Shown piece after piece: positions 4,684 through 53,153 of a DNA stretch of 64,000 nt. The stretch comes from Mesorhizobium sp. 65-26. Its GTDB lineage: Bacteria > Pseudomonadota > Alphaproteobacteria > Rhizobiales > Rhizobiaceae. Numbering within the stretch: position 1 is the first letter of the stretch; every line of letters starts with the position of its first letter. A program made the translations under genes and the position numbers. The stretch covers positions 62,001-126,000 of the forward strand of contig MKVL01000039.1 of NCBI GenBank assembly GCA_001899205.1, read 5' to 3'. The notes beneath the pieces were generated by a model, which did no database searches, was not told the origin of the DNA, and was given only the letters and a program-made list of their open reading frames with translations.

Positions 4684-5823
4684 CTACGCCACCGCGCCGG
4701 TCGGGCGGCTGTTGGCGGCCCGCAGCAGTTCCGAGCGAACCCACGGATCGGCCATGGCCTTGGGGATCGCCCGCGCGCGCACATCGTCAGGGAGCGTCGA
4801 CACTTCGCCGTAGAGGCACGACCAGTGCTGGCAATGCTCCGCGAGCGGCCTCTCGTTTCGTTCCCACTGTGCCAGCCGGCCGGGAATGTCGCGACTGTCG
4901 GTGACACCTTCCATGTAGGCGGCCAGTGCCAGCGCGCTCTGCATGGCCATGCCGCCACCCTGCCCCAGGTTCGGAGGCTGGGCATGGGCGGCATCGCCCA
5001 ATATGGCGGCATGTCCGGCCGACCACGACCTCACCGTGACGATGCTGTAGGGGCTCCACGACAAGACGTCGTCGATACGGTCGATGAGATGCGCCCAATG
5101 CGGAAAGGAAGAGCGCCAGCTGCTCTTGTTCAACGGGTATGCCCGCCCCTCCTCGTCGGTCTCCTGGCAGGTCAGGGCCAGGTAGATCTGACGCGAGGCA
5201 AGCGGCGTGATCAGGAACCGCCGCATGCCGGACCAGCACTCGATGTATTTGTCCTCGCCTCCCGGACCGAGATCGTCCGTTCCACCCTCGATGATCGTGC
5301 GGATAGCGCCTTCGGTGGTCTGCTGGTGGCCCAGCTCCAGCCCCAGCGACTTGCGGATCGGCGACCATACGCCGTCGGCCCCGATCACCAGGTCCGCGCG
5401 CAAGGAGCGCCTGCCGGGGAGAAGAAGCTCTCCCTGCGCGCTGGCGCCGATCACCTCATGGTTGGTGCGGATTTCGACGCCGGCCTTTTCCGCCGCGCCC
5501 TTCAGGCCCTCCAGAAGATCGCGCCGGTGCAACGTCACCAGCCGCACGGCCGGAGGCAACCCGCCATCGTCCAGGATGCTGTTGTCGTGGCCGCGCTGCT
5601 CCATCGCATGCCCGCGATAGGCGTTCTTCGCCAGCCCTCCCAGGCCGAGGGACTCCAGGATGCGCAGCCCATTTTCCCAGATGTAGATGCCGGCCCCCGA
5701 CGCTCTCAACTGGGGCTGGCGTTCGAGGACGGTGACGCTCCATCCGCGTTGCGCCAGCGCGGTGGCCGCCGTCAATCCGGCGAAGCCGGCGCCGGCGATG
5801 AGTGCCGTCGGTTTGCCTGTCAT
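4684..5823 (-). CDS. FAD-dependent aromatic monooxygenase (possible 4-quinolone 3-monooxygenase)
   Basis: Flavoprotein hydroxylase of the p-hydroxybenzoate/salicylate hydroxylase group. It has the N-terminal dinucleotide fold GAGFAG, the internal DG-type motif VIGADGVWSPIR (about residues 155-166) and the second FAD motif GDAAHAQPPNLGQGGG (about 280-295). The frame is open back to 5916, but the ATG at 5823 has GAGGAG at the right distance and begins MTGKPTALIAGAGFAG. It is the last gene of the livKHMGF operon, 55 bp after livF. Because the same regulatory sites control a Hod-type ring-cleaving dioxygenase, I infer it hydroxylates C3 of a 4-quinolone-like compound, as PqsH, AqdB or MeqE-type enzymes do. 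The family assignment is firm; the substrate is inference. Confidence 0.85.
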   Translation of the reverse strand: MTGKPTALIAGAGFAGLTAATALAQRGWSVTVLERQPQLRASGAGIYIWENGLRILESLGLGGLAKNAYRGHAMEQRGHDNSILDDGGLPPAVRLVTLHRRDLLEGLKGAAEKAGVEIRTNHEVIGASAQGELLLPGRRSLRADLVIGADGVWSPIRKSLGLELGHQQTTEGAIRTIIEGGTDDLGPGGEDKYIECWSGMRRFLITPLASRQIYLALTCQETDEEGRAYPLNKSSWRSSFPHWAHLIDRIDDVLSWSPYSIVTVRSWSAGHAAILGDAAHAQPPNLGQGGGMAMQSALALAAYMEGVTDSRDIPGRLAQWERNERPLAEHCQHWSCLYGEVSTLPDDVRARAIPKAMADPWVRSELLRAANSRPTGAVA

Positions 5824-5878
5824 CGGTCCTACTCCTCTCGACCCCTGCAAAATCTGAAAAGCGGGCTGGCCATGCCGG

Positions 5879-6613
5879 TCACATGCCGAAGTAGCGGCGC
5901 TTGACTTCGGGATCATCCACCAGCTGGTGCGCCGGCCCGGACAGCGTCACGATGCCGTTCTCGATGATGTATCCGTGGTCGGCGGTCTCCAGCGCCAGTT
6001 TCGAATTCTGCTCGGACAGCAGCACCGTATAGCCGTCGGCGCGCAGCTGGCCGATGATCTCGAAGACCTTCTTGACCATGATGGGCGCCAGCCCGAGCGT
6101 TGGCTCGTCCAGCAGGACAAGCCGTGGCTTCGCCATCAGGCTCCGGCCGATGGCGAGCATCTGCTGCTCGCCGCCGGACATGCTGCCGGCCAATTGCCGG
6201 CGCCGCTCGCGCAGTTTGGGAAACTGACGAAAGATTTCCTCGAGCCTTTCCTGGGTACCGCCATGCGCGCGCGGAACCACCGCGCCGAGCCGCAGATTCT
6301 GCTCGACAGTCAGCGTGGTGAACACCATGCGGCCCTCGGGCACCAGCGCGATCCCCGCGTCCACGCGCCGGTGCGACGGCATATCGGATATGTCGGCTCC
6401 ATCGTAGACCATGCTTCCGGCGCCGCGCCTGATCAGCCCGAGGATGGTCTTCATCAACGTCGTCTTGCCGGCGCCGTTGGGACCGACGAGGGCCGTGATC
6501 GATCCGCGTTCGACACGAAGGCCGATGTCGCGCAGGATGACGACAGGTCCATAGCCCGAGGACAGGCCGGAAATGTCGAGCAGCGGCCCGCTCGGGGCGA
6601 CAGGCGGCGTCAT
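5879..6613 (-). CDS. livF: Branched-chain-amino-acid-type ABC transporter ATPase LivF
   Basis: One of two ATPases of a LIV-type importer, 244 residues. The Walker A motif is GPNGAGKTT (about residues 38-46), the signature motif is MSGGEQQMLAIGRSLM, and Walker B is RLVLLDEPTLGLAP. The LivF-type feature is the conserved VPEGRMVFTTLTVEQNL block. The ATG overlaps the stop of livG in an ATGA, so the two are translationally coupled. In this operon the transporter sits with an aromatic monooxygenase, so its cargo is more likely an aromatic or heterocyclic compound than an amino acid; LIV-family importers of aromatics are well known in soil bacteria. Confidence 0.93.
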   Translation of the reverse strand: MTPPVAPSGPLLDISGLSSGYGPVVILRDIGLRVERGSITALVGPNGAGKTTLMKTILGLIRRGAGSMVYDGADISDMPSHRRVDAGIALVPEGRMVFTTLTVEQNLRLGAVVPRAHGGTQERLEEIFRQFPKLRERRRQLAGSMSGGEQQMLAIGRSLMAKPRLVLLDEPTLGLAPIMVKKVFEIIGQLRADGYTVLLSEQNSKLALETADHGYIIENGIVTLSGPAHQLVDDPEVKRRYFGM

Positions 6614-7329
6614 CCGAAATACACCCTGATAACGTTCTCGTCGGCGACGACCTGCTCAGGCGGTCCCATGGCGATCGGCACACCATGATCCAGCACGAGG
6701 ATCCGGTCGGACAAATTCATCAGCGCGCCCATGACGTGCTCGATGATCAGGATCGTCAGCTTGCGCTCCTGCCTCAACCGGAAGAGCGTCTCGCTCATCT
6801 GCGCGACTTCCGTTGCCGTGAGCCCCGCCATGACCTCGTCGAGCAGGAGCAGCTTTGCGCCGGTCGCCAGCGCACGCGCGATCTCCAGCCTCTTCTGGTT
6901 CGACAGGGTGAGGCTTCCGGCAGCCTGGTCCGCAAGGTGGCCAAGCCCCACCTCATCCAGCGCCCTGCGCCCGGCCTGGGTGGCGGCCTCCAGCCGGTGC
7001 GCGCGCACCGCCCCGTACATGGCCGAGACGATGACGTTCTCGAGCACCGACAGATTGGCGAACGGACGCACGATCTGAAAGGTCCTGCCGAGCCCCATGC
7101 GGCAGATCTGGTCGGGCCGTTGCCCGGCCAGCGGCCGGCCGTCGAAGGTGATGGTGCCTCCGTTCGGCCGTATCTGGCCGGCGATCACGCCGAACAACGT
7201 CGTCTTGCCGGCTCCGTTGGCGCCCATCAGGCCGAAGATCGTGCCTTCATCCACGCTGAAGGAGACGTCCTGGAGCGCCTTCAGGCCGCCGAACTGCTTG
7301 GAGACGTTGTCGACCCTGAGCATGGTCAT
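6610..7329 (-). CDS. livG: Branched-chain-amino-acid-type ABC transporter ATPase LivG
   Basis: Second ATPase of the LIV-type importer. It shows Walker A GANGAGKTT, the LivG-type block GRTFQIVRPFANLSVLENV, a signature region read as LTLSNQKRLEIARALA and Walker B KLLLLDEVMAGL. The signature LSNQKRLEIA replaces the usual LSYGQQRRLEIA, a small deviation in the ABC signature worth noting. Either ATG at 7329 or the one two codons later could be used; 7329 overlaps the livM stop as ATGA. It is 239 residues. It works with livF, livM, livH and the binding protein. Confidence 0.92.
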   Translation of the reverse strand: MTMLRVDNVSKQFGGLKALQDVSFSVDEGTIFGLMGANGAGKTTLFGVIAGQIRPNGGTITFDGRPLAGQRPDQICRMGLGRTFQIVRPFANLSVLENVIVSAMYGAVRAHRLEAATQAGRRALDEVGLGHLADQAAGSLTLSNQKRLEIARALATGAKLLLLDEVMAGLTATEVAQMSETLFRLRQERKLTILIIEHVMGALMNLSDRILVLDHGVPIAMGPPEQVVADENVIRVYFG

Positions 7330-8234
7330 GCGCGTCTCAAGCCCCTGCGCAGCAGCCCCGAAAGCCCTTGCGGGACGAACAGGATGAAGACGATGAGCAG
7401 CGCGCCCAGGATCATCATGTAGGCTTGCGGAAAACGCGCCCACAGAAGCTCCGACAGGATGACCAGGAACAACGTCCCGAACAGCGGTCCGGACATGCTT
7501 CCGAGGCCGCCGACGATCGCCGTCGTGACGATGGTGAAGGACACCGTCGCGTCGAATGCCTGGTCGGCGGCAAAATAGCTGGTGCGCAGCACGAGAAGGC
7601 CGCCGACCATGCCCGGAATGATCGCCGAGGCCACGAAAGCGATCAGCTTCAGCCGCGTCACGGGAACGCCGATCGCCTCCGCGGCGACCTCGTTCTCGCG
7701 AATGGCAGCCAGGCCGCGGCCGAAGCGGGAATGCGCCGTCCAGGCCGCCATCGCCGTGGCGATGACAGCAAGGGCCAGCATCGCGTAATAGAGTTCTTCC
7801 AGCGAAGGGGTGTCGAAGATCAGCCGGCTGAATTGCCCCAGCCGCGTCTCGATCAGCATGACCAGGTTCTTCACCAGTTCGGCGAAGCCGAAGGTCAGGA
7901 TGACGAAATACGGCCCCTTGACCCGCAGGACCGGCAGGCCGACGACCAGCGCCAGCAGGCCGGCCGCCGCCCCGGAGAGCAGTAGGGCGAAGGGCACGGG
8001 CATCCAGTCCAGGCTGACGACCAGGACATAGGCGCCTATTCCATAGAACACGGCGTGGCCGAGCGAGATGTAGCCCGTCGTCGCCGACAGAAGCGACCAG
8101 CTCTGGATGAGAGCCACCCACATGGCGACGATGAAAGCCACGCCCAGCCAGTAGTCCGACCGCACAAGCGGCACGAGCGCCAGCAGGCAGGCGAGCACGA
8201 CATAGGCCGAGATCGAAAGAACCTTGCCGCTCAT
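7326..8234 (-). CDS. livM: LIV-type ABC transporter permease LivM
   Basis: Inner-membrane permease, 302 residues with about eight to ten hydrophobic segments. Family hallmarks are SLGHAVFYGIGAYV near residue 58, the RVKGPYFVILTFGFAEL block, and the cytoplasmic loop FGRGLAAIRENEVAAEAIGV that contacts the ATPases. The start ATG at 8234 overlaps the livH stop as ATGA. The frame stays open far upstream on the same strand, but that is antisense-free overlap within livH and is not coding. All five transporter genes are packed with overlaps, so they form one transcription unit with the monooxygenase. Confidence 0.93.
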   Translation of the reverse strand: MSGKVLSISAYVVLACLLALVPLVRSDYWLGVAFIVAMWVALIQSWSLLSATTGYISLGHAVFYGIGAYVLVVSLDWMPVPFALLLSGAAAGLLALVVGLPVLRVKGPYFVILTFGFAELVKNLVMLIETRLGQFSRLIFDTPSLEELYYAMLALAVIATAMAAWTAHSRFGRGLAAIRENEVAAEAIGVPVTRLKLIAFVASAIIPGMVGGLLVLRTSYFAADQAFDATVSFTIVTTAIVGGLGSMSGPLFGTLFLVILSELLWARFPQAYMMILGALLIVFILFVPQGLSGLLRRGLRRA

Positions 8235-9109
8235 CGTGCTTGCACAGCCTTGCCGAACAGGCCCTGCGGGCGCAGCAGGAGCACGCCGACGAAGATGCCG
8301 TAGATAAGGATGGAGCGGTAGGTGGCCGAGGTCAGCGCGACGCCGAAGGTCTCGACGAAGCCCAGGACGAAGCCCGCGGCGATGCCGGCAAGGATGTTCC
8401 CAAGTCCGCCCATGATGACGACGACGAAGGCGGCTATCGTGAAGGGAAAGCCCATGAACGGCGTAATCTGCTGCGTCATGCTGACCAGCACGCCCGCCAC
8501 GCCGGCTATGGCGAAGCCGGCGCAGATCGAGGTCATCTGCACCCGATCGACGTCGACGCCGACAACTGCCGCCGCGTCCTTGCGCTCGATGACGGCAAGC
8601 AGGCTCCAGCCGGCGATATGGAACCGCAGGAAGGCAAGCGCGCCCAGCGTGATGAGCGCGGCGACGCCGAGCAGCAGCAGCATGTTCCCGGTTGCCGAAA
8701 CGCCCGCGAAGGTGTGGACGCCACCGAGATACTGATAGCCGCGCGACGTGGCCGTGAAGGCCAGCGACGTCGCATTCTGCAGGATCACCGACAGCCCGTA
8801 GAAGATGATAAGGGAATTCGCCTCGAGGCGCTGCGCCAGCGCCGGCGCGTTCAGCTGCCGCTTCAGCAAGACGACATAGACCAGGAAGCCGAGCCCGCCG
8901 CAAAGCAGCGTGGTGGTGAACAGCGAGATGATCGGCGATATGCCGAGCAGCGTGAAGGACCAGAACGCGATATAGGCGCCGATCATGACCAGGTCGCCAT
9001 GAGCGATGTTGAGCAGCCTGAGCGACCCATAGACGAGATTGAGCCCGAGGGCGACGAGCGCGTAGAGCGAGCCCGAGACGATGGCCGCGAACAACAATTG
9101 CTGGAACAT
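8231..9109 (-). CDS. livH: LIV-type ABC transporter permease LivH
   Basis: Inner-membrane permease, 292 residues, almost entirely hydrophobic segments. It begins with the LivH-type sequence GSLYALVALGLNLVYG and the following RLLNIAHGDLVMIGAY, and ends with the usual LRPQGLFGK. The cytoplasmic loop is AVIERKDAAAVVGVDVDRVQ. The ATG at 9109 follows the binding-protein stop by 46 bp. Together with LivM it forms the translocation pore for the substrate delivered by the binding protein encoded just upstream. Confidence 0.93.
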   Translation of the reverse strand: MFQQLLFAAIVSGSLYALVALGLNLVYGSLRLLNIAHGDLVMIGAYIAFWSFTLLGISPIISLFTTTLLCGGLGFLVYVVLLKRQLNAPALAQRLEANSLIIFYGLSVILQNATSLAFTATSRGYQYLGGVHTFAGVSATGNMLLLLGVAALITLGALAFLRFHIAGWSLLAVIERKDAAAVVGVDVDRVQMTSICAGFAIAGVAGVLVSMTQQITPFMGFPFTIAAFVVVIMGGLGNILAGIAAGFVLGFVETFGVALTSATYRSILIYGIFVGVLLLRPQGLFGKAVQAR

Positions 9110-9155
9110 GGAAACCCGTGCAGACGCCTGTGGGAAATCGGTGCCTTGGCTGTCC

Positions 9156-10340
9156 TCACCAGCCTTTCTTGGGTCTGAAATCCTTGGTCTTGATGGAATC
9201 CGGCCAGACCAGTTCCAGGTTGCCGTCCTGGATCTGAAGGAACGAGGTTGGCGTCATGGTGTTCTGGACGCCATCGAATTTGACGGGGCCGTTGATCGTA
9301 TCGAAGGTCTGCGAGGCGATCGCCTCACGGATCTTTTCCTTGTCCAGGCCGGCGGTCGCCACCGCCTGCTGAAGTATCTCCATCGACATGTAAGAGAGCA
9401 CGCTGTCCAGAGCGTCCGGCGCCTCCTTGTACTTCGCCAGATAGGCGTCATAGAACGGCCGGGCCCTTGGCCATTTGCTCTGGTTGGGCGACCAGTGGCC
9501 GACCGTCACCATATTGTCCACGCCGGCGCCGAAGGCCTGCTGGTAAGCGGAAATGGTCGCGCCGATCAGCGACAGCACGAAGGGCGCTTTCACGTTCAGC
9601 TGCTTGGCCTGCGTGGCGAACAGGAACGTATCGGACGGATAGCTCAGCACGATGAACGCATCCGGACTGGACTGGTTGGCGCCGCTGATGAGCGTCGTCA
9701 TGTCCTTGATATCAGGCGGGAAATCCTCATTCGCCACCAGCTTGATGCCGTTCTTCTCCAACGCCGGAAGCAGATAGGCCTTGATCTCCTGCGCCAGCGG
9801 CAGGACGTTGGCGAAGACGGCGGCTGTCTTGACGTTTTCCTTGGCCATGAAGGCGGCGAGTTCCTCGCCCACCTTGTCGGGGATGACGGCCGTCGGGAAC
9901 CAGATATAGCCAGGCTTGACTTCGCGCAGCTTCACCGAGGCGGCGGTGTTTCCGACCATGGGGAATTTGTGCTTGGCCAGCACCGGCGCGATCGCAAGAT
10001 GGATCGGCGTGCTCCACGGGGCCGCGAGCAGGTCGACATTGTCCTCGGTGATCAGCTTCTCGTAGATGCGGACGGCATTGGCGGGGTTGGACTGGTCATC
10101 GTAGCTGACGAATTCGACCGGCCGGCGCTGGCCGCCGATCTCGAGCCCGCCGGCCGCGTTGACCTGATCCTTCCACAGTTCATAGGCGTTGACCTGGGAG
10201 GGAGCCGCCTGCGCGAACAGCCCCGTGAGGCACATCGAATAGCCGATGCGCACGGGATTGTCGGCGGCGACTGCAAGGCGCGTCGCGGGCGCCAGCGCGG
10301 CTGCGGCAAGGAACGTTCTGCGGTTGATGACGAATGCCAT
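9156..10340 (-). CDS. LIV-type ABC transporter substrate-binding protein
   Basis: Periplasmic receptor of the importer (Peripla_BP_6 fold), 394 residues. The N-terminus has twin arginines in INRRTFLAAAALAPATRLAVA, so export may be by Tat, with cleavage near residue 25. It continues with the family start NPVRIGYSMCLTGLFAQAAP. The frame is open to 10388, but ATG 10340 has GGAGGT four bases upstream. It leads the operon livKHMGF-monooxygenase. Its promoter region carries two copies of the 18-bp motif also found before the Hod-like dioxygenase gene. The ligand is not known; context suggests an aromatic N-heterocycle. Confidence 0.9.
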   Translation of the reverse strand: MAFVINRRTFLAAAALAPATRLAVAADNPVRIGYSMCLTGLFAQAAPSQVNAYELWKDQVNAAGGLEIGGQRRPVEFVSYDDQSNPANAVRIYEKLITEDNVDLLAAPWSTPIHLAIAPVLAKHKFPMVGNTAASVKLREVKPGYIWFPTAVIPDKVGEELAAFMAKENVKTAAVFANVLPLAQEIKAYLLPALEKNGIKLVANEDFPPDIKDMTTLISGANQSSPDAFIVLSYPSDTFLFATQAKQLNVKAPFVLSLIGATISAYQQAFGAGVDNMVTVGHWSPNQSKWPRARPFYDAYLAKYKEAPDALDSVLSYMSMEILQQAVATAGLDKEKIREAIASQTFDTINGPVKFDGVQNTMTPTSFLQIQDGNLELVWPDSIKTKDFRPKKGW

Positions 10341-10440
10341 GGTACCTCCTCCGGCGCGTCGGCGCGCATCCCTGTCGTGGCTCCACAAATCGAGTTGGGA
10401 GCTGTTCCCACATCATTTCCTGGCGCCTTGTGGCACTCTT

Positions 10441-10458
10441 GAACGAATGATGTTCTTT
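10441..10458 (-). promoter_or_regulatory. Operator-like site, liv proximal
   Basis: Read leftward this is AAAGAAC-ATC-ATTCGTTC. It matches 16 of the 18-bp consensus AAAGAACnnnATTCGCTA, apart from the last positions. It lies at the expected transcription start of the liv operon and 48 bp from the distal copy, exactly the spacing seen before the dioxygenase gene. Confidence 0.65.
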
Positions 10459-10459
10459 A

Positions 10460-10488
10460 AAGAATGCCAGCATCGCGGGCAGTGTCAA
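10460..10488 (-). promoter_or_regulatory. Predicted sigma-70 promoter of the liv operon
   Basis: On the leftward strand a perfect -35 box TTGACA (10488-10483) is followed after 17 bp by ATTCTT (10465-10460) as a -10 box. The -35 box adjoins the distal operator copy, so a bound repressor would block polymerase. Confidence 0.6.
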
Positions 10489-10506
10489 TAGCGAATTACG
10501 TTCTTT
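10489..10506 (-). promoter_or_regulatory. Operator-like site, liv distal
   Basis: Read leftward: AAAGAAC-GTA-ATTCGCTA, directly followed by TTGACA. The same 25-bp arrangement with only the three spacer bases different occurs at 11372-11396 before the dioxygenase gene, on the opposite strand. This near identity outside coding sequence points to a common regulator, most simply the TetR protein encoded between the two promoters. Confidence 0.75.
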
Positions 10507-10660
10507 TATAAATTGGAATGCGGCGACCCTCGACACACGGCGCCGCCCTCCCCGGCGATGCAGGCTCACCCGGGCATAGCTATCAAGCGCGCGATGAAGG
10601 AGGTGGTCGCTGCGGCGGGATTTGTCCAGCCAGGCGGAGCGGAGACGCGGTTGCGGCGGC

Positions 10661-11317
10661 TTAGTGACGAGCCCCGTCGAGCAGCATCGCGACCAGAGCC
10701 TGCTCCACGTCGGTTATGTCGGTGCTGTCTTGGCTGCCCGCGCGCACGGCTTTCACCCGCAGCGCCACGCCGTCGAACGTGAGCATGAGAAGCCTGGCAA
10801 AGGCCTGCAGGCGCGCATCCTCGGGCGTGTAGCCATCGATCGCGTCGCTGACGATCTGGACGATCTTCTTCTCCGCCCAATGCAGCAGGTCGGGCTTGTA
10901 TTTGTCCTTGGGCATGACGATGGCAAGGCCCTCCATCAAGGCGGAGGTGTAGCCGGTCTTGTCGTCCGCGATCCCGTCGAGAAGGCCATGGACGAGGTGC
11001 TGTATCTTCTTCTCCGGCGTCTTTGCCCGCGACACGCCGCGCTCGAGCGCGGTGATCTGCGAGCGGAACCACGGTTCGTAGATGGTGAAATAGATCTGCA
11101 GCTTGGACTCGAAATAGACGTAGACGTTGGACGGCGCGATGCCCGCCCCCTTGGCGATCTTGGCGACCGTCGTGTCCATGTAGCTCGTCATCGCGATTTG
11201 CGACGCGGCCGACGTCAGGATCGCCTGCCTGACCGATTCATTCTTAACGCGAGCCAAGACCGCCCCCTCGAACAACACTGAGTTACCACGCTTTAGCGTG
11301 AATTCGCCGTTGCTCAA
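10661..11317 (-). CDS. TetR-family transcriptional regulator
   Basis: DNA-binding regulator of 218 residues. The TetR-type helix-turn-helix is at about residues 48-68: MDTTVAKIAKGAGIAPSNVY followed by VYFESKLQIYFTIYEPW. The C-terminal ligand domain is unlike any that I can name. The N-terminus before VLARVKNESVRQAILTSAA is longer than usual, so an internal start is possible. It lies between the liv/monooxygenase operon, same strand, and the divergent dioxygenase gene. The four shared operator-like sites flanking it make it the natural candidate repressor of both, probably relieved by the imported compound or a derived metabolite. Sites at 11373-11438 would also place its own promoter under control. 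Confidence 0.9.
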   Translation of the reverse strand: MSNGEFTLKRGNSVLFEGAVLARVKNESVRQAILTSAASQIAMTSYMDTTVAKIAKGAGIAPSNVYVYFESKLQIYFTIYEPWFRSQITALERGVSRAKTPEKKIQHLVHGLLDGIADDKTGYTSALMEGLAIVMPKDKYKPDLLHWAEKKIVQIVSDAIDGYTPEDARLQAFARLLMLTFDGVALRVKAVRAGSQDSTDITDVEQALVAMLLDGARH

Positions 11318-11372
11318 ACAGGCGAGCCGATGCTGCGTGCCTTCGGATGATACGACGGGATTTGAAATCTAA

Positions 11373-11390
11373 AAAGAACAATATTCGCTA
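11373..11390 (+). promoter_or_regulatory. Operator-like site, dioxygenase distal
   Basis: AAAGAAC-AAT-ATTCGCTA, immediately followed by the TTGACA -35 box of the rightward promoter. It matches the liv distal site in all but the central three bases, including the flanking TTGACA. Confidence 0.75.
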
Positions 11391-11420
11391 TTGACATCGA
11401 TCCCGCAGGATACCTTCATA
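11391..11420 (+). promoter_or_regulatory. Predicted sigma-70 promoter of the dioxygenase gene
   Basis: TTGACA at 11391-11396 and TTCATA at 11415-11420, separated by 18 bp. The box order and the two flanking operator-like sites mirror the liv promoter. The start codon lies 100 bp downstream. Confidence 0.6.
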
Positions 11421-11438
11421 AGAGAATATCATTCGCTA
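11421..11438 (+). promoter_or_regulatory. Operator-like site, dioxygenase proximal
   Basis: AGAGAAT-ATC-ATTCGCTA, at the expected transcription start, 48 bp from the distal site. The core GAAT-ATC-ATTC is a perfect inverted repeat here, which suggests that the bound protein is a dimer reading GAAY/ATTC half-sites. Confidence 0.65.
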
Positions 11439-11519
11439 ATGAGCACGAAGCTGGCCATGGCGGAAGCGATGGCCAATGGCTTGGATCATCGAGGGACCGA
11501 GCAAAAAGGGAGAAGCAGA

Positions 11520-12305
11520 ATGCCGACGTTGCGGATCAACGACCACCCGATCGACTATCTCGAATTCGGCAATCCGGAAGCGGAGGCCATCGTCCTCCTG
11601 TCGGGCTGGGCGCAGGACAACCGCCTTTTCAAATATCTTTCGCCGTTGCTGGCCGAAAAATTCCACGTGCTCGTGCCCGACTACCGCGGGCACGACGCCA
11701 ACGAGACCGTGCATGGCGATTTCGGCACCGAGGAATTGATCGACGACATCGCGGCTTTCATCAAGCTGAAGGCGCCGAAGAACCCGCTGCTGGTCTCGAC
11801 CTCGCATGGCTGCTGGGTCAACATCGGCGTGTGCGAGCGCCTGGGTTTCGAGAAGACCGTGCTGATCGACTGGCTGATGCAGCCGCATCCGGGTTTCGTC
11901 AAGCAGCTCGAGGATGGGCAGGACCCTCAGCGCTACAAGGAAGGCCGCGACTCCTTCTTCAACGAGTGGGAAGCGGCGACCGACAATGTCGACGTCATCA
12001 ACCACATGAAGAAGGAAATGGCCTGGTTCTCAGGGCCGATGTGGATGCGCGCCTGCCGCGAGATCCTGAGGGCGTATGACAAATACGGCTCGCCCCTGAA
12101 GCGCATGGAGGGACTGAAGAAGCAGCCCCGGCTCATCCATATCTATTCCCAGCCTCTGTCGGCCGACTACCGGAAATTCCAGGAGGACTATTCGTCCGAA
12201 CACCCCTGGTTCCGGCCGGTCCATATTCCCGGGCAGACGCATTTCCCGACGCTCGAGAATCCGGAAGCAGTCGCCGCGGCAATCGCGGATTTTCGCCGGA
12301 GCTAG
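11520..12305 (+). CDS. Cofactor-free 2,4-dioxygenase of the Hod/Qdo/AqdC type (alpha/beta hydrolase fold)
   Basis: Alpha/beta-hydrolase-fold protein of 261 residues. It closely resembles 1H-3-hydroxy-4-oxoquinaldine 2,4-dioxygenase (Hod), an enzyme that opens the N-heterocyclic ring with O2 and releases CO without metal or flavin. Matching blocks are GWAQDNRLFKYL (residues 29-40), VPDYRGHD (52-59), SHGCW (95-99) with the nucleophile-elbow Ser95, IDWLMQPHPGF with Asp117, and EHPWF followed by THFP with His241. These correspond in order to the Ser, Asp and His of Hod; the SHGxW and DWLM motifs separate this group from ordinary esterases. ATG 11520 has GGGAG eight bases upstream; a start at 11440 is less likely. 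Substrate is inferred: a 3-hydroxy-4(1H)-quinolone. An ordinary hydrolase cannot be fully excluded. Confidence 0.75.
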   Translation: MPTLRINDHPIDYLEFGNPEAEAIVLLSGWAQDNRLFKYLSPLLAEKFHVLVPDYRGHDANETVHGDFGTEELIDDIAAFIKLKAPKNPLLVSTSHGCWVNIGVCERLGFEKTVLIDWLMQPHPGFVKQLEDGQDPQRYKEGRDSFFNEWEAATDNVDVINHMKKEMAWFSGPMWMRACREILRAYDKYGSPLKRMEGLKKQPRLIHIYSQPLSADYRKFQEDYSSEHPWFRPVHIPGQTHFPTLENPEAVAAAIADFRRS

Positions 12306-13154: not shown

Positions 13155-14000
13155 TCAGGCGGCCTTGTCGCGGCCGACGGCCTGGACCCTCTCCCAGACG
13201 CGACCGGGCTGCGGAACGTCGAGGTCGAAGACGGTTTCGAACGTCTCGGCGAGATGGTCGGTGCTCGTTATGAACTGCTCGGTGAGGCTGTTCGCCTTGA
13301 CGCGGCGCAGGCAGTCGTTCTGCAACGAGATGTAGCCGTCCGCCGTGTGCCGGAGCACCGCGAGCGCATTCGTGAAGGGCGAGCCGGGATCGTGCATCAG
13401 CCAGCCATGCGTCGCGGCCATGGTGGCCTCGTCGCTATGGTCCGGCCTGAAATCGAAGCTTTTCGCGATGCCGCGCGGATGGTTGTTGAAGCGCAGCCAG
13501 CCGCCTTCTTCCAAAGTGATCGAAAAATCGAAGCCGCGCTGGCTGAATGGCCCGACGGCCAGCGGCACCGGTTCGACGATGGCATCCGCCACGCCGACTT
13601 CGGCCAGATAGGGACGGTCGAGATCGACGCGCAGGGTCAGGTGGTTGCCGATGGCGAGGTCGCCGAGCCTTTCACGATCGACCCCGCCGCAAAGGCGCGT
13701 CACCCGGAAGCCCAGCCCTGCCAGAGCGGCGCCCAGCAGGCCGTTCATCTCGTAGCACCAGCCGCCGCGCCGGCCCGCTACCATCTTGGCGTGGGCAGCC
13801 GCCGGCGTGATCGAGGACGGCCATCCCATGAAGGCATCCAGCGCCTCCCAGGTGAAGGCCATGAGGTGCGCCCGGTGAAGCCTCGACAGGCTGTCGACGT
13901 CGAGAGAGCCCGGCCGCTCCATTCCGATACGTGCGAGGTAGGCGTCGAGCTGGTCGGCGCTGAGGGTCATTCCATTTTCGTTTGAAGGCGCGTGCGTCAT
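13155..14000 (-). CDS. Arylamine N-acetyltransferase family protein with Glu at the catalytic Asp position
   Basis: NAT-fold enzyme of 281 residues, the usual length. Known members move acetyl from acetyl-CoA to arylamines through a Cys-His-Asp triad. Here the nucleophile is Cys82 in GRRGGWCYEMNGL and the histidine is His120 in GNHLTLRVDL. The place of the usual Asp (canonical DVGFG) reads AEVGVAD, so Glu134 replaces it. ATG 14000 is preceded by AAAGGAGA; the upstream frame to 14213 is not needed. Activity may be retained, changed or lost. It lies near a putative quinolone degradation locus, whose pathway would yield N-acylanthranilates, but there is no direct link. Confidence 0.88.
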   Translation of the reverse strand: MTHAPSNENGMTLSADQLDAYLARIGMERPGSLDVDSLSRLHRAHLMAFTWEALDAFMGWPSSITPAAAHAKMVAGRRGGWCYEMNGLLGAALAGLGFRVTRLCGGVDRERLGDLAIGNHLTLRVDLDRPYLAEVGVADAIVEPVPLAVGPFSQRGFDFSITLEEGGWLRFNNHPRGIAKSFDFRPDHSDEATMAATHGWLMHDPGSPFTNALAVLRHTADGYISLQNDCLRRVKANSLTEQFITSTDHLAETFETVFDLDVPQPGRVWERVQAVGRDKAA

Positions 14001-14272
14001 CCTTCGGTCTCCTTTCGATGGACCGTTGTCGAGGGTTCTCGATGTTGTGTTTCGAAGTGGCTGGTCGCCGTCTCGGACGACCTTGCATTGGCGGACGCCC
14101 GCGCTTGGCGTGCATCCACCCGTGATGGGTATTGTTCGTTCTCCACACCGTCCGGCCGGTACGGCGCCTCTATAGCGCTCCGGAAAACCGGGCGTTCCTA
14201 AATGAATGTGCAAGGCGTGCCCGATATCCTAAAAGTTTGCTAAGCAGGGCTGGGGCGGAGACGGGGACGGCG

Positions 14273-43231: not shown

Positions 43232-44344
43232 TTGGACGCAAAGGTAAGCTCGTTCGGCATTCCCGCCGATCCTTTCGCCGACGAGCCGCTACGGTGGACG
43301 CTGGCAATGGACACCGCATCCGTGCCGCCCCCCGAGCAGTTCGATTTCTACCGAACGTGGCACGCGGACCTTGCCGACGTGCAGCTTCTGGGCGCGAAAC
43401 GCTCCTCCTTTGCCGCCCGGCAACAGGTGTGGCAACTGGGCGATATGGCGCTCGTGACGATCGAATGCCCCGGCTTCGGCTACGACCTTCGGTGGGAGCA
43501 CCGGAAGCGGCCGTTGCTGGACCACTGGGTATTGTCCGTGCCGTTTTCCAGGTCCCCTTCAGGCGAGATGAAGGCGGGAAAGGCCCGTATGCGTTGCCTC
43601 GCCTTACCCGATGGAGGGCTGACCAACGATGACCTGTTCGTCGCGCTCTTCCTGCCGAACACCATGCCGGCAACCAACGCGTCCAGCCTTCAAATCGGCG
43701 AGGCGACGTTGCGCTTCCTGGCGGACTACATGCTTCTCCTGCACCGCTCCCTTCCCCACCTCCGGAAAGGAGACCTGCCGCTTATCGTGGCGACGACGAC
43801 CAATCTTTTCGCGGCCGCCCTTGCGCCGTCCAACGATCGCGACATGGCGGCCCAGGGACCGACGGACGCCGTCGCCACGGCGCGCATCGCCAGGATCATC
43901 ACCGAAAGACTCCGCGACCCTCTTTTGACGCCTGACAAGCTCTGCCGCGCCGTCGGCGTGTCGCGATCCCGTCTCTACCGGATGTTCGAACCGGCGGGCG
44001 GAATATCCAACTATGTCCGTCGCAAGCGGCTGCTCAAGACACGCGATGTGCTTGCGGACAGCTCGGACCGGCGCTCCATCTCCAGCATCGCCGAGGAATG
44101 GGGCTTCACCGACGCCTCGACATACAGCCGGATGTTCAAGCTCGAGTTCGGCATCTCTCCCAAGGAAGCGCGCGAACTCGGATGGCAGGGCATCAAACAT
44201 GCCACCTGGCTCACCATCGACCAGCCGGCTGGCGGGGGCAGTGATAGCCTAAGCAGTGTTTTGATCAACAATTCCCTGGGTCTATCGCTATCGCCAAGAC
44301 GTCGAGAAGTGGCTTCGCCTGGCGCGCCCGGTTTCGTCCAATGA
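43232..44344 (+). CDS. AraC-family transcriptional regulator, tandem paralogue 1
   Basis: Regulator of 370 residues with an N-terminal AraC-binding-like domain (PEQFDFYRTWHADLADVQLL onward) and a C-terminal HTH_18 domain (LCRAVGVSRSRLYRMFEPAG, then SSIAEEWGFTDASTYSRMF). TTG 43232 is chosen because from there the protein aligns residue by residue with the ATG start of the paralogue at 44615. In the 73-residue HTH stretch from FEPAGG to GIKHA, 59 positions are identical between the two. The C-terminal tail here is longer. Ligand and targets unknown. Confidence 0.85.
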   Translation: MDAKVSSFGIPADPFADEPLRWTLAMDTASVPPPEQFDFYRTWHADLADVQLLGAKRSSFAARQQVWQLGDMALVTIECPGFGYDLRWEHRKRPLLDHWVLSVPFSRSPSGEMKAGKARMRCLALPDGGLTNDDLFVALFLPNTMPATNASSLQIGEATLRFLADYMLLLHRSLPHLRKGDLPLIVATTTNLFAAALAPSNDRDMAAQGPTDAVATARIARIITERLRDPLLTPDKLCRAVGVSRSRLYRMFEPAGGISNYVRRKRLLKTRDVLADSSDRRSISSIAEEWGFTDASTYSRMFKLEFGISPKEARELGWQGIKHATWLTIDQPAGGGSDSLSSVLINNSLGLSLSPRRREVASPGAPGFVQ

Positions 44345-44614
44345 AGTACTCCTTGCAGGCCGGCTCTCTCAGTCGAACGGAAGACGCGAGATTATTAGCC
44401 GTCGCAATCGCGAGAAATATACGGCAGACCCATATTTTGGATTCTTCGCATATTCTAAAAATTTGCCGCCAACCTAGGATTCTGCCGTTTGAGGCCTGCC
44501 CTTCGAAGCGCCAATGACGTCAATTTTACTCTTATTTTCCAAGTAAAAGAATCAGCCTGTTGCGAAAGGTATCTTCTATATTATGGTGCGCTCGCGGGGG
44601 GATAGGAGTTCGTC

Positions 44615-45670
44615 ATGGACACAGGGGTAATCTCGACCAGCCTCCCCATCACTTCCTTCGCGGCGCCGCCCTTGAGATGCGTTGTCGACGTGGATACGTC
44701 GGAGGCACCGCCCGCCGAGCAGTTCGACCTTTTTCAGAGCTGGCACGCGGACATCGTTGATGTCGACCTGCTTAGCGGCGAGTTCAGCTCGTTTGCAGCG
44801 CGCGAGCGAGCGTGGCAGTTGGGCGACCTCGTTCTGGCTTCGGTGGAATATCCTGGAACCGGTTATCACCGTCGCTGGAGCAGCAAGAAGCATCCGGTCT
44901 TCGATCATTGGCTTCTGTGCGTACCGCAAACGATCCCGCCCGGCGGCGGACGCCCCCGGACAGGACGGTTGCGCTGGCATTGCCTGGCCGTCCCACATCA
45001 GGATGAGAGCGAGGATGATGGCGTCCTTTGCCTCTTCCTTCCGCGGGATTTCGCGTTCTCCCAGCCCTTGACGCTGGATATCCGTCCAGAGATGGCGGCG
45101 TTCGTTTCGGACTACATCCTCCTGCTCTACCATTCTCTTCCGGATCGCACGGAGAACGATGTTGCCTATATCGGCGCGGCGACCGCAAGCCTGCTCGCCG
45201 CCTGCGTCTCTCCATCCCGGAACCACATTTTCGAAGCCCAGGAGCCGATCGACGCCGTCATCATGTCGCGCGCGAACAAGTTCATCTCCGCCAGGCTTGC
45301 CGATCGAAACCTGACCCCGGAAAAGCTTTGCCAGGAGCTTGGCATCTCACGCTCCCGCCTCTACCGGATCTTCGAGCCGGCCGGGGGCATTTCGCACTAC
45401 ATCCGGCGCCAGCGACTGCTGAAGACAAGGGATGTCCTGGGCGACAGCACGGATGGTCGTCCGATCTCCAGCATCGCGGAGGAATGGGGCTTCGTCGACC
45501 CGTCCACCTACAGCCGGACATTCCGGAGGGAATTCGGAATTTCCCCCAAGGAGGCGCGCGAAGCCGGCTGGCTTGGGATCAAGCATGCGCCTCTGTCCGA
45601 GCGACAGGGCGACAGCGTATCCTCGCTGAGCGGCCTGCTGGCCAACAACTATCTTGGTCGCCAGCTCTAG
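44615..45670 (+). CDS. AraC-family transcriptional regulator, tandem paralogue 2
   Basis: Regulator of 351 residues, closely related to the gene just upstream over its whole length. N-terminal domain: PAEQFDLFQSWHADIVDVDL. C-terminal HTH: LCQELGISRSRLYRIFEPAG and SSIAEEWGFVDPSTYSRTF. ATG 44615 has GGAG upstream and a 270-bp AT-rich region before it, so it is likely expressed from its own promoter. The pair arose by tandem duplication. Neither has an adjoining operon that would reveal the regulated pathway. Confidence 0.88.
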   Translation: MDTGVISTSLPITSFAAPPLRCVVDVDTSEAPPAEQFDLFQSWHADIVDVDLLSGEFSSFAARERAWQLGDLVLASVEYPGTGYHRRWSSKKHPVFDHWLLCVPQTIPPGGGRPRTGRLRWHCLAVPHQDESEDDGVLCLFLPRDFAFSQPLTLDIRPEMAAFVSDYILLLYHSLPDRTENDVAYIGAATASLLAACVSPSRNHIFEAQEPIDAVIMSRANKFISARLADRNLTPEKLCQELGISRSRLYRIFEPAGGISHYIRRQRLLKTRDVLGDSTDGRPISSIAEEWGFVDPSTYSRTFRREFGISPKEAREAGWLGIKHAPLSERQGDSVSSLSGLLANNYLGRQL

Positions 45671-45731
45671 AGCAAAGCCAGCAAAACTGCGCGGCGGTCT
45701 TGCGTCCGGAATTGCGTAAAAACAAAGGGAT

Positions 45732-45782
45732 AGAGCATGATGACATCCGAACACCGCTCCACGCTCTTCGGCATCATGCTCT
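45732..45782. repeat. Rhizobial-type palindromic intergenic element
   Basis: AGAGCATGATG (45732-45742) and CATCATGCTCT (45772-45782) are exact inverted copies around a 29-nt middle with CTTCGG. The form matches the common short palindromic element of Mesorhizobium/Rhizobium intergenic regions. It lies between the AraC gene and the L,D-transpeptidase. Confidence 0.6.
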
Positions 45783-45840
45783 AGTGGAAAACAATTGCCG
45801 GCACCGGCCGGCGTTATCTGATCGAGAATGGGGGACAGAC

Positions 45841-46448
45841 TTGGTAAACTGCTTGGATAGACGGGCCGTGATCGTAGGGGGATATCGTTCCTCGCTTTGT
45901 TCGGTCGCGCGGAGGCCTCCCAGAAGGGTTGGTATATCGGGAGAATCCCGGACAAGCCCTTCGACATTCCTCTGGTCGACAAGGCGCGCATTCCGGAGCA
46001 GTTCCGCCGGCAGGACGTGCCCTATTCCGGCAGGGAGCCCCCCGGGACAATCCTGATCAACAAACGGGAACGGTTCCTCTACTATGTCGAAGACGGCGGC
46101 AGGGCGATCCGCTTCGGCATCGCGGTCGGCCGGGACGGACAGAGATGGGATGGAGAGGCGACGGTCGGCAGAAGAGCCCAATGGCCGAGCTGGACCCCTA
46201 CCGCCAACATGCGGCGCCGCAATCCGAGCTTGCCTCAGCGCGTTTCGGGCGGCCCCAACAATCCCCTGGGCGCAAGGGCGCTTTATCTGTATCGCAACGG
46301 CCGGGATACGCTGTATCGCATCCATGGGACCAATGAGCCGTGGAGCATCGGCAAGGCAGCGTCGTCCGGCTGCATCCGGATGTTGAACGAGCACATCTTC
46401 GAGCTTTACGGCACGGTTCGAAACGGCGCCCGCGTCGTTGTCCTTTAG
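45841..46448 (+). CDS. L,D-transpeptidase (YkuD), signal peptide out of frame by one base
   Basis: Periplasmic enzyme that makes 3-3 cross-links in peptidoglycan or attaches lipoproteins to it. The frame from 45897 encodes the catalytic domain, with the full motif IHGTNEPWSIGKAASSGCIRM and active Cys near the end. This frame alone lacks an export signal. The frame from TTG 45841 reads MVNCLDRRAVIVGG and then leaves. If one G were added to the run of five G at 45877-45881, the two join to RRAVIVGGISFLALFGRAEA, a textbook twin-arginine or Sec signal. So either the sequence lost a base, or the gene is a real frameshift. Coordinates cover both parts. Confidence 0.8.
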
Positions 46449-46490
46449 CCGGCACTGAATTCCGTAGCCGATCGACTACGGCGCCGTTGC

Positions 46491-46610
46491 ATGATCTTCC
46501 CCGCGCTCACCGCCATGTGGGCGCGGGACGTGGCCTTCCCCGACCCCGTGCCCATGCAGTGCCCCTGGGCAGAAACGACGACCCTCCTCGCCTGGCTGAA
46601 TCGAATTTAG
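46491..46610 (+). CDS. Small open frame, doubtful
   Basis: A 39-residue frame starting ATG and rich in Pro and Trp (MIFPALTAMWARDVAFPDP). It has no clear ribosome site and no recognised family. It could be the remnant of a longer gene. The rest of the 46449-46700 gap shows nothing else. Confidence 0.15.
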   Translation: MIFPALTAMWARDVAFPDPVPMQCPWAETTTLLAWLNRI

Positions 46611-46700
46611 GCCACCGCCTGTAGACATCGCGTCGTCAATCACCCAATCTGCCTGAGGGAACACGAGCGCCTCGAAGAAGGCGCCTACCTTCGGGTGCGC

Positions 46701-47579
46701 ATGAACAATCGCTGGACTTTGTACGATCCACGCCTGGCCTGGATGCTGATTGCACCGGTGCTTCTGCTGCTGATCTTCTTCCTGGTGCTGCCGATCGCGG
46801 TGATGGCCGCCTATACGTTCTTCACCTTCGTCACGGCCGGCGTCGAAACCAGCACGCTGACCACCGCCAACTGGCAGGAATTCTTCACCGACAGTTACTA
46901 TTCCGGCTTCCTACTGAAGACGCTCAGGGTCGGCGCGATCACGGCGCTGCTGTGCGGCGTGCTTGGATACTTCCCCGCCTATTTCATCTGGGCGACTACG
47001 TTCAAGCACAAATGGCTGCTGCTGCTCCTCCTCATCGTACCGTTCTGGATCAGCTTCACCATCCGCACCTTCTCCTGGATCAACATCCTGGGCGAACAGG
47101 GGGTCATCAATGTCGCGCTGCTGAAGCTGGGCATCATCAGCGAACCCTTGCCGATGCTCTACAACGAGGGCGCGGTGATCCTCGGGCTGCTGCACTTCCT
47201 GCTGCCCTACATGATCCTCAACGTCTATGTCAGCCTGGAGGGCATCGACCGCACGCTGATCTCGGCGGCGCGCTCGATGGGCTGCACCAGCGCGCAGGCC
47301 TTCCGCGAGGTGACGCTGCCTCTGTCGCTGCCTGGCCTCGCGGCTGGTCTGTTGCTCTGCTTCGTGCTCGCCGCCGGCAGCTACGTGACGCCGCAGCTTC
47401 TCGGCTCCGGCCGCGACGCGCTCTTCGGCAATTTGATCTACGACACGATCATGGGCGAGCTGAACTGGCCGATGGGCGCCACGCTGTCGATCGTGCTGTT
47501 CGTCGTGCTCGGCTTCTTCGCCGCCATCTACACCCGCTACATGGGCATGTCGCAGATCGTCAAAGGACTCGGTGGATGA
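46701..47579 (+). CDS. Polyamine-type ABC transporter permease (PotB-like)
   Basis: Inner-membrane permease, 292 residues from ATG 46701 (GTG 46695 possible), with six helices. Family pattern: WMLIAPVLLLLIFFLVLPI at the start, FWISFTIRTFSWINILGEQG as in PotB/PotH, and the EAA loop SAARSMGCTSAQAFREVTLP. It is the first gene of a four-gene spermidine/putrescine-type importer with overlapping starts and stops, unusual only in that the ATPase gene comes last. The exact substrate, polyamine or a related amine, cannot be deduced. Confidence 0.92.
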   Translation: MNNRWTLYDPRLAWMLIAPVLLLLIFFLVLPIAVMAAYTFFTFVTAGVETSTLTTANWQEFFTDSYYSGFLLKTLRVGAITALLCGVLGYFPAYFIWATTFKHKWLLLLLLIVPFWISFTIRTFSWINILGEQGVINVALLKLGIISEPLPMLYNEGAVILGLLHFLLPYMILNVYVSLEGIDRTLISAARSMGCTSAQAFREVTLPLSLPGLAAGLLLCFVLAAGSYVTPQLLGSGRDALFGNLIYDTIMGELNWPMGATLSIVLFVVLGFFAAIYTRYMGMSQIVKGLGG

Positions 47580-50715: not shown

Positions 50716-50735
50716 GGCGGCCGCCTGATCCGGCG

Positions 50736-51629: not shown

Positions 51630-51701
51630 GGACGAACGCCCCGCATCATAATCCCGCGTCCGGACCTTCGACCGGACGGACGATCAATTCAACCGGAATG
51701 A

Positions 51702-51836
51702 CTGCCTCGCGGTCGAGAATTCGATCGAACAGGACTACGTCACCGGGAAGACATGCGACTGCCTCGGACCGGCACCGTTCCGATCTATCTCGGCGCGCCG
51801 AATGTCGACGGGTTCGTGCCGCCCTTGCGCAAATAG
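51702..51836 (+). pseudogene. Decayed fragment of a GT10 fucosyltransferase gene
   Basis: About 135 bp closely match the GT10 gene at 4205-4345. The frame starts CLAVENSIEQDYVTGKTCDCLG, then loses one base in the text corresponding to GAGTVP, and resumes as PIYLGAPNVDGFVPP. It then jumps to LRK and a stop, resembling the LRKW near the end of the intact protein. The rest of the gene is gone. The remaining gap at 51630-51959 holds nothing else that I recognise. Confidence 0.8.
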
Positions 51837-51959
51837 AAGGGCGAGCTTCCGGACTGGGCTGCCAATCTTCGTATCTTGACGAAAATCGGCGCGCCTGTTT
51901 GAGACAGATGCAATCGGGACATTTGCTCCCGGGGGAAACGAGCAAGCCATGGCCAAGCT

Positions 51960-53021: not shown

Positions 53022-53153
53022 CTTGAACAGGCCGGCAAGGTGCCCCAGGTCGACATTTTGATCCGTGCGGAGCGCGCCCTTGCGACTGGCTCGATGGGTC
53101 GGCTTTTCACGGAGGTCGTGCGACATCCGTGTTCGTACAATAGGCCTCGCTCC

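Follow-up and report, generated by a model that had tools for sequence, protein, structure and literature searches.

To our knowledge, quinolone dioxygenases that need no cofactor have so far been described from degraders of quinaldine, 4-oxoquinoline and the Pseudomonas quinolone signal (PQS). In the quinaldine cluster on plasmid pAL1 of Arthrobacter sp. Rue61a, a hydroxylase and a 2,4-dioxygenase (Hod/MeqE) are accompanied by molybdenum-hydroxylase subunits, an alpha/beta hydrolase and a major facilitator superfamily (MFS) transporter; we take Moq to be the name of the gene before hod and Amq that of the alpha/beta hydrolase. The aqd clusters of Rhodococcus erythropolis BG43 and Mycobacteroides abscessus combine a monooxygenase dependent on flavin adenine dinucleotide (FAD), a cofactor-free dioxygenase and a TetR-family regulator in aqdRABC. 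In the two characterised clusters that we compared (pAL1 and aqd1), the transporter gene next to the enzymes encodes an MFS protein. We analyse here a 64-kb stretch of the genome of Mesorhizobium sp. 65-26, a soil relative of the root-nodule bacteria (contig MKVL01000039.1; the whole stretch is referred to as the window) in which a dioxygenase related to 1H-3-hydroxy-4-oxoquinoline 2,4-dioxygenase (QDO) of Pseudomonas putida 33/1 stands next to an FAD monooxygenase, a TetR-family regulator and a complete importer of the branched-chain amino acid (LIV) type. With a probability of roughly 0.8, we consider this locus to be a module that takes up a small 4(1H)-quinolone and opens its ring, a reading drawn from comparisons of sequences and predicted structures.

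The dioxygenase and its relatives

The original prediction had recognized the SHGxW, DWLM and THFP blocks of cofactor-free 2,4-dioxygenases in the protein encoded at 11520-12305, and it was right in doing so: the blocks are present (SHGCW, DWLM and THFP), and the protein aligns along its full length with QDO of P. putida 33/1 (3IBT; E = 1.9e-102) and matches HOD with E = 1.7e-49. Its identity in a single alignment is 57.1% to QDO, 34.9% to HOD, 32.0% to AqdC1 and 31.0% to AqdC2; a paralogue in a sister cluster on the same contig (see below) shares 42.4% in that alignment and 44% in a separate comparison. The label "Hod-like" needs one correction: within the family of 3-hydroxy-4(1H)-quinolone 2,4-dioxygenases (HQD; QDO, HOD and AqdC), the closest relative in sequence is QDO and not HOD.

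For the comparison of active sites, we used 21 positions, namely, the 19 ligand-contact residues of HOD given in PMC10548524 plus Asp126 and His251. The window enzyme carries the same residue as QDO at 20 of them, the sole pocket change being from Cys in QDO to Ala31, whereas the same residue strings give an agreement of 14/21 with HOD and 13/21 with AqdC1. PMC3961685 describes a Ser95/His244/Asp120 triad in QDO and a His251/Asp126 dyad in HOD. The QDO residues correspond to Ser95/His241/Asp117 in the window protein, in which both the His-Asp dyad of the HQD family and the elbow Ser are kept.

One possible refutation had been fixed beforehand, namely, an ordinary esterase as the best structural match, and it did not come about. 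The AlphaFold model of the dioxygenase (mean predicted local distance difference test score, pLDDT, 94.8) was compared with solved structures in Foldseek, and the top match was 3IBT, with a template modeling (TM) score of 0.96 and 57% identity. Ranks 1-19 were occupied by QDO, AqdC and HOD (TM 0.93-0.96), and ordinary esterases, dehalogenases and similar proteins appeared only from rank 20 onwards (TM 0.66-0.80 in ranks 20-50). By its predicted fold, its dyad and its place in the tree described below, the protein is assigned to the HQD family, and family membership makes the predicted CO-releasing 2,4-dioxygenolytic reaction well supported. According to PMC10548524, more than 150 members of this family have been found by bioinformatics and nine have been validated; the earlier subfamily survey cited there and in PMC8961568 may already list some of the dioxygenases treated here.

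Relatives were collected by scanning an 84,980-species genome collection on the basis of an alignment of seven dioxygenases, with the peptide patterns LLSGW[CA]QD and TSHG[GC]W[AV]N, so that relatives lacking these patterns, the HOD and AqdC types among them, are not expected in the set. The scan gave 62 loci, 14 of which were of the QDO type by tblastn and 48 were others. In a tree of 69 rows, the window dioxygenase, QDO and 14 fetched relatives form a clade of 16 rows with support of 100/100. A distant HQD-like gene (36%) was also seen on megaplasmids of Pantoea agglomerans (L008:7001-7789); in its product, the elbow Ser is replaced by Ala, and the catalytic His and Asp are kept. The annotation shows no monooxygenase gene up to 7 kb away from it.

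The FAD monooxygenase as a partner of the dioxygenase

The FAD hydroxylase had been proposed to supply the 3-hydroxy substrate of the dioxygenase, and our comparisons agree with this role. The enzyme shares 39% identity with Moq of pAL1 and 37% and 38% with AqdB1 and AqdB2, respectively, and it passes our working limit for the Moq/AqdB type (full-length similarity at 35% identity). We therefore regard it as a probable 4(1H)-quinolone 3-monooxygenase. A monooxygenase of the Moq, AqdB or FAD-A kind, FAD-A being the type of the window enzyme, accompanies the dioxygenase in 14/14 fetched loci of the QDO-type clade. The partner is of the Moq/AqdB1 type (54-61%) in the five actinobacterial loci and of the FAD-A type (63-86%) in the nine proteobacterial loci; therefore, different monooxygenase lineages appear to fill the same slot.

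In a tree of 35 FAD enzymes, the window enzyme belongs to a group of ten (support 100/99), all from QDO-type loci. This linkage is partly built in, because 30 of the 35 rows were picked beside dioxygenases; the others are MHPCO (2-methyl-3-hydroxypyridine-5-carboxylate oxygenase) and genes from four of the six genomes of the family that have a distant FAD match without this dioxygenase. A count in 297 genomes of the family gives a less biased figure: the FAD enzyme occurs at an identity of at least 69% in three of them, all with a QDO-type dioxygenase. At E 1e-60, an FAD match was found in 18/297 genomes, 12 of which are exactly the 12 genomes in which a dioxygenase was matched at E 1e-40; the remaining six (38-41% identity) have no dioxygenase match at that threshold.

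Some related loci are richer in such enzymes. In Beijerinckia (L024:115-13787) and Bradyrhizobium (L026:1460-11956), the HQD gene and the FAD enzyme gene are adjoined by a gene for a second FAD monooxygenase, a relative of 2RGJ/3C96, which we take to be PhzS (L026 copy, 310 bits). PhzS hydroxylates an N-heteroaromatic acid with loss of its carboxyl group. An isochorismatase-family hydrolase gene is found next to the HQD gene in both loci (checked on the L026 copy), and L024 additionally encodes RidA-like and SfnG/RutA-like proteins.

A LIV-type importer linked to quinolone enzymes

The importer is complete: Pfam assigns the binding protein, two permeases and two ATPases, all encoded in one operon. 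It thus shares all five components with the LIV importers of branched-chain amino acids but differs from them in its link to quinolone enzymes and in that none of its proteins reached the cut-off among the NCBIfam models listed. The original prediction treated this importer as a dedicated part of the system, and the distribution of its genes supports the view that it belongs to the quinolone gene set. A relative of the binding protein (49-92%) is encoded in 8/14 QDO-type loci, which are all eight alphaproteobacterial ones (L020-L026 and L071), and in 8/8 of these, the dioxygenase gene is adjoined by a continuous series of all five importer genes. Among the 297 genomes of the family, the same three hold the dioxygenase (at least 60% identity), the binding protein (E 1e-90 or better; six candidates per genome were scored) and the FAD enzyme (at least 69%).

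The gene order is not constant. The window and L020-L022 have split units, whereas L023, L025 and L071 have the binding protein, LivH, LivM, LivG, LivF, dioxygenase and FAD enzyme genes in one direction, with the TetR gene divergent. In L024 and L026, the importers are more distant (46-54%), extra genes are present and such a TetR gene is absent.

Could the importer be unrelated to the enzymes and share with them merely a neighbourhood or a regulator? The genome encodes 22 Peripla_BP_6 proteins over the cut-off, which gives a chance of approximately 6% (22 x 20 kb / 6.84 Mb) of finding one within 10 kb of a given gene. Against such a coincidence stand the same-family importer in 8/8 alphaproteobacterial loci with differing gene orders, although these loci are related to each other and thus do not represent eight independent events; the 3/3 genome match among 297; the FAD gene at the end of the liv operon; and the same operators on both units. 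We consider an unrelated importer very unlikely.

Among the literature matches listed (titles and beginnings of abstracts, with subscription papers mostly outside this coverage), none paired a LIV importer with this chemistry, and quinaldine combined with ABC transporters for branched-chain amino acids gave no literature match. As far as we have seen, it is new that QDO-type cleavage is tied to a LIV importer together with a proposed TetR switch of two sites, while the chemistry itself is known.

Putative operators shared by two transcription units

The two transcription units had been predicted to share operator-like sites, and counts of these sites confirm it. The consensus AAAGAAYNNNATTCGYT is a near-palindrome that, at up to two mismatches, occurs four times in the window, exclusively in the two promoters, against 0.44 sites expected; none of 100 shuffled versions reached four sites. 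In both promoters, two palindromes 48 bp apart bracket a TTGACA box, one directly 5' of it and the other at the presumed -10/+1 region (Table 1). The three sites without mismatch in the 6.84-Mb genome are all at this locus.

The paired arrangement recurs with a spacing of 47-49 bp in both promoters of L020-L022 and in the single promoter of L023 and L025. Shuffled patterns (60) gave a mean of 0.1 pairs per window with a maximum of 1, compared with two places here, each counted on both strands. The TetR gene is kept in L020-L023, L025 and L071 and is not found in L024 and L026. These data support joint control of the dioxygenase and liv-FAD units through the shared operator-like sites, and, judging from location and co-occurrence, the TetR-family regulator is most likely the protein that binds them.

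Elsewhere in the genome, three further sites were found at one mismatch, two on contig C14 and one on C25. At up to two mismatches, there were 42 genome-wide matches versus 27 for the reversed control; therefore, single weak sites carry no meaning, and the C14 and C25 sites were set aside as probable chance matches rather than further members of the regulon.

Organization of the locus

All eight genes named in the original prediction are present at their positions in the window, and every gene assignment at the locus is backed by Pfam (Table 1). The minus strand carries an uninterrupted order of binding protein, LivH, LivM, LivG, LivF and FAD monooxygenase genes; the TetR gene adjoins this run, and the dioxygenase gene is divergent from the TetR gene. 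Two starts are possible for TetR, of which the TTG at 11257-11255 is likelier, since the matches in relatives begin near it.

Table 1 Coordinates of genes and putative operators of the quinolone locus (positions in the 64-kb window)
Feature	Position	Strand	Remarks
FAD-dependent aromatic hydroxylase, probable 4(1H)-quinolone 3-monooxygenase	4684..5823	-	FAD_binding_3; last gene of the liv operon
LivF-type ATPase	5879..6613	-	ABC_tran; closest NCBIfam model LivF, under cut-off
LivG-type ATPase	6610..7329	-	ABC_tran + BCA_ABC_TP_C; closest NCBIfam model LivG, under cut-off
LivM-type permease	7326..8234	-	BPD_transp_2
LivH-type permease	8231..9109	-	BPD_transp_2
Periplasmic binding protein of the importer	9156..10340	-	Peripla_BP_6, 196 bits; first gene of the liv operon
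Operator 2, liv-FAD promoter (putative)	10442..10458	-	48 bp from operator 1; presumed -10/+1 region
Operator 1, liv-FAD promoter (putative)	10490..10506	-	directly 5' of TTGACA 10488-10483
TetR-family regulator	10661..~11257 or 11317	-	TetR_N
Operator 1, dioxygenase promoter (putative)	11373..11389	+	directly 5' of TTGACA 11391-11396
Operator 2, dioxygenase promoter (putative)	11421..11437	+	48 bp downstream of operator 1; presumed -10/+1 region
QDO-type 3-hydroxy-4(1H)-quinolone 2,4-dioxygenase (predicted), 261 aa	11520..12305	+	alpha/beta-hydrolase fold, cofactor-free; triad Ser95-Asp117-His241

Proposed pathway and its substrate

In the proposed pathway, the LIV-type importer would bring a quinolone, probably charged or polar and most likely of plant or microbial origin, into the cell, and the FAD monooxygenase would hydroxylate it at C3, as its homology to Moq and AqdB and its constant pairing with the dioxygenase suggest. 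The His241-Asp117 pair of the QDO-type enzyme, which is predicted to work with neither a metal nor a cofactor, would then deprotonate the 3-OH group, O2 would add at C2 and C4, and ring cleavage would expel CO and yield an N-acyl-anthranilate. An amidase encoded elsewhere, perhaps the Amq-like one of the sister cluster, may free anthranilate from this product. The TetR-family protein would repress both units via the paired palindromes until released by the quinolone or a metabolite.

These considerations raise a key question: which quinolone does the module process? A pocket of the QDO type favours no or a small 2-substituent, and an importer with a periplasmic binding protein suggests a polar or charged substrate. 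The most likely substrates are 4-quinolones that are 2-unsubstituted or bear a short or polar 2-substituent, e.g., 4-hydroxyquinoline or kynurenate, rather than the alkylquinolone signals; kynurenate is the boldest candidate that the data suggest. The small 4-quinolone most likely serves as food or is detoxified. Both the binding protein and the repressor are expected to have a pocket for the substrate or a close relative of it, which should make the natural substrate discoverable.

The original prediction left the choice between quinolone catabolism and quorum quenching, of which a 4-quinolone catabolic locus is supported and quorum quenching is not. If the locus acted like aqdRABC, it would degrade alkylquinolones such as PQS and its precursor HHQ, as quorum quenching or detoxification. 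The reaction type would be the same, the FAD enzyme has 37-38% identity to AqdB1 and AqdB2, and a TetR-family regulator accompanies aqd in Mycobacteroides according to PMC5332414, just as AqdR does in Rhodococcus. However, the dioxygenase sits in the QDO clade, with 31-32% identity to AqdC1 and AqdC2 and 13/21 active-site residues in common with AqdC1; the window TetR gave no significant alignment to AqdR in a pairwise comparison; and no relative of AqdA1 or AqdA2 was found in the window at E 1e-5. The transporter also differs, as aqdC1 adjoins an MFS gene and not a LIV importer, and an importer with a periplasmic binding protein would be odd for alkylquinolones, which PMC3053476 describes as hydrophobic and poorly soluble. 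By the clade of its dioxygenase, its regulator and its lack of an AqdA relative, the window locus is not an aqd system. Alkylquinolone degradation is thus unlikely here, and PQS quenching as the primary function was rejected on these same three points.

Legume flavonoids were also considered, since the hosts are relatives of rhizobia: the dioxygenase could cleave flavonols (3-hydroxy-4-chromones), whose cleavage also releases CO and whose ring systems are analogous, as stated in PMC6479552. The flavonol dioxygenases described there are, however, metal enzymes, and the active site of the window dioxygenase is that of QDO. Moreover, flavonols already carry the 3-OH group, which would leave the conserved FAD hydroxylase without a function. 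We regard flavonol cleavage as highly improbable.

The window locus shares the hydroxylase and 2,4-dioxygenase with pAL1 but differs by its LIV importer and TetR gene and by the lack of an Amq relative. The closest likeness is to QDO itself, in fold, triad, pocket and clade. The nearest Pseudomonas locus (L027) encodes an FAD-A enzyme and an amidase-like hydrolase, but there is no LIV importer on its 10.5-kb contig.

Observations that weigh against the proposed module

Several observations speak against the proposed module and have to be set against its probability. No such importer was found in the fetched stretches of the six non-alphaproteobacterial QDO-type loci (Pseudomonas and Actinobacteria), the Pseudomonas contig being only 10.5 kb long. 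Four of four other genomes sampled from the same genus have no dioxygenase match at E 1e-40, so the quinolone module is accessory. The solved relatives of the binding protein are weak (best 69 bits), and its structure model is poor (pLDDT 62). With regard to control, L071 has one operator only, with perfect arms; a pair search of the fetched L024 locus found no operator pair; and the only pair in L026 has 4+4 mismatches, lies far from the quinolone genes and is probably due to chance. The later steps of the pathway also lack obvious genes: a search at E 1e-5 with four reference amidases (that of the sister cluster, Amq, AqdA1 and AqdA2) found no relative in the window, L020-L023, L025, L026 or L071, other amidase families being outside this search, and TIGR03228 for anthranilate 1,2-dioxygenase gave eight matches in the genome, none over the cut-off, with other routes outside the search. 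An Amq relative (42%) is carried by L024, and the two other family genomes with a QDO-type dioxygenase contain only distant relatives of the sister-cluster amidase (28-32%). Finally, among solved structures, the FAD enzyme comes closest to MHPCO (3ALM, 194 bits), a pyridine-ring oxygenase, and the deep forks that place the FAD enzyme relative to Moq are supported by 72/49 only.

In another explanation, the FAD enzyme is itself a pyridine-ring oxygenase of the MHPCO type (3ALJ/3ALM) and the compound degraded is a 3-hydroxypyridine or 4-pyridone (vitamin B6-like or mimosine-like), with the dioxygenase recruited for a pyridone. MHPCO is an enzyme of rhizobial vitamin B6 degradation, and the bit score above is the strongest that any solved structure offers to the FAD enzyme. 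In the 35-row tree, however, MHPCO forms its own group with genes of three genomes of the family (L121-L123; support 100/100), which a fourth gene (L120) joins loosely, and none of the four stretches L120-L123 that carry these genes has an HQD-family dioxygenase. The L121-L123 genomes have no dioxygenase match at E 1e-40. The 30 dioxygenase-linked FAD enzymes fall outside the MHPCO group, with support of just 83/65 for the split, and the window dioxygenase has the pocket of QDO, an enzyme whose substrate is a bicyclic quinolone. On balance, a pyridine-ring pathway seems distinctly unlikely, and a small 4(1H)-quinolone remains the preferred substrate class.

A sister cluster on the same contig

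A second HQD gene lies on the same contig approximately 28 kb upstream, outside the window, in a cluster at contig positions ~44490-56050. Besides the HQD protein, this cluster encodes a Moq-like monooxygenase (48% to Moq), an amidase (48% to Amq of pAL1) and a LIV importer of its own. Further products are members of the DapA and aspartate-dehydrogenase families, an aldehyde dehydrogenase and a 3-hydroxyanthranilate 3,4-dioxygenase (TIGR03037 and PRK13264 over the cut-off). The binding protein of this importer matches 4ZPJ, 4EVQ, 4EY3 and 4F06 at 113-150 bits, several of which presumably bind benzoate derivatives.

A gene for a 3-hydroxyanthranilate dioxygenase is present in the fetched stretch of 26/48 non-QDO-type loci versus 0/14 QDO-type loci. 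Within the clade of the sister gene (26 rows including it, support 100/99), it was found in 21/25 loci; of the other four, two are short stretches. In 24/25 loci of this clade, a LIV binding protein belonging to one of two sister types is encoded, with no permeases in the stretch in three cases (L046, L063 and L065). The three Mesorhizobium genomes IRAMC:0171, 1M-11 and LU, which have the window-type layout, carry a sister-type locus as well (L048, L058 and L053), as does the genome of the window, while the two other family genomes with a QDO-type dioxygenase have a single dioxygenase match at E 1e-40.

Genes resembling the meta route via 2-aminomuconate were seen by eye near the HQD and 3-hydroxyanthranilate dioxygenase genes in Paenibacillus (L059) and, in part, in Streptomyces (L076) and Saccharopolyspora (L077). 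They comprise ACMSD, a RidA-type deaminase, an aldehyde dehydrogenase, a hydratase, an aldolase and an acetaldehyde dehydrogenase, with the fullest set in L059, whose ACMSD-like amidohydrolase matches PF04909 and is the sole gene of the set checked beyond inspection by eye. In the sister-type cluster of Nitratireductor alexandrii, a molybdopterin-binding hydroxylase subunit was likewise noticed by eye (L034:12685-15012); in quinaldine degradation, a molybdenum hydroxylase makes the 4-oxo compound.

The 3-hydroxyanthranilate dioxygenase and the meta-route-like genes nearby point to an 8-hydroxy-4-quinolone, e.g., 4,8-dihydroxyquinoline or xanthurenate, as the substrate of the sister cluster, and L059, L076 and L077 are candidates for a complete route from 8-hydroxy-4-quinolone to central metabolism. 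Taken together, the window locus and its sister could represent two LIV-fed routes, from kynurenate to anthranilate and from xanthurenate to 3-hydroxyanthranilate, both via 3-hydroxylation and cofactor-free CO-releasing cleavage; we offer this scheme tentatively and consider it less likely than not. Among the literature matches listed, none described an oxygenolytic CO-releasing route for kynurenate or xanthurenate. If the scheme were true, Rhizobiales, Firmicutes and Actinobacteria would all have representatives of the 8-hydroxy branch. With plant 4-quinolones or the pair of kynurenate and xanthurenate as substrates, CO-releasing catabolism in plant-associated bacteria would be linked to signals derived from tryptophan and to alkaloids of the rhizosphere.

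Other genes in the window

Approximately 1 kb downstream of the dioxygenase gene, a gene at 13155-14213 (minus strand) looks by eye like an arylamine N-acetyltransferase. It is probably unrelated to the module, since it is not among the downstream neighbours listed in L022. Two adjacent genes on the plus strand, at 43232-44344 and 44615-45670, encode proteins whose N-termini appear alike by eye and are probably paralogues.

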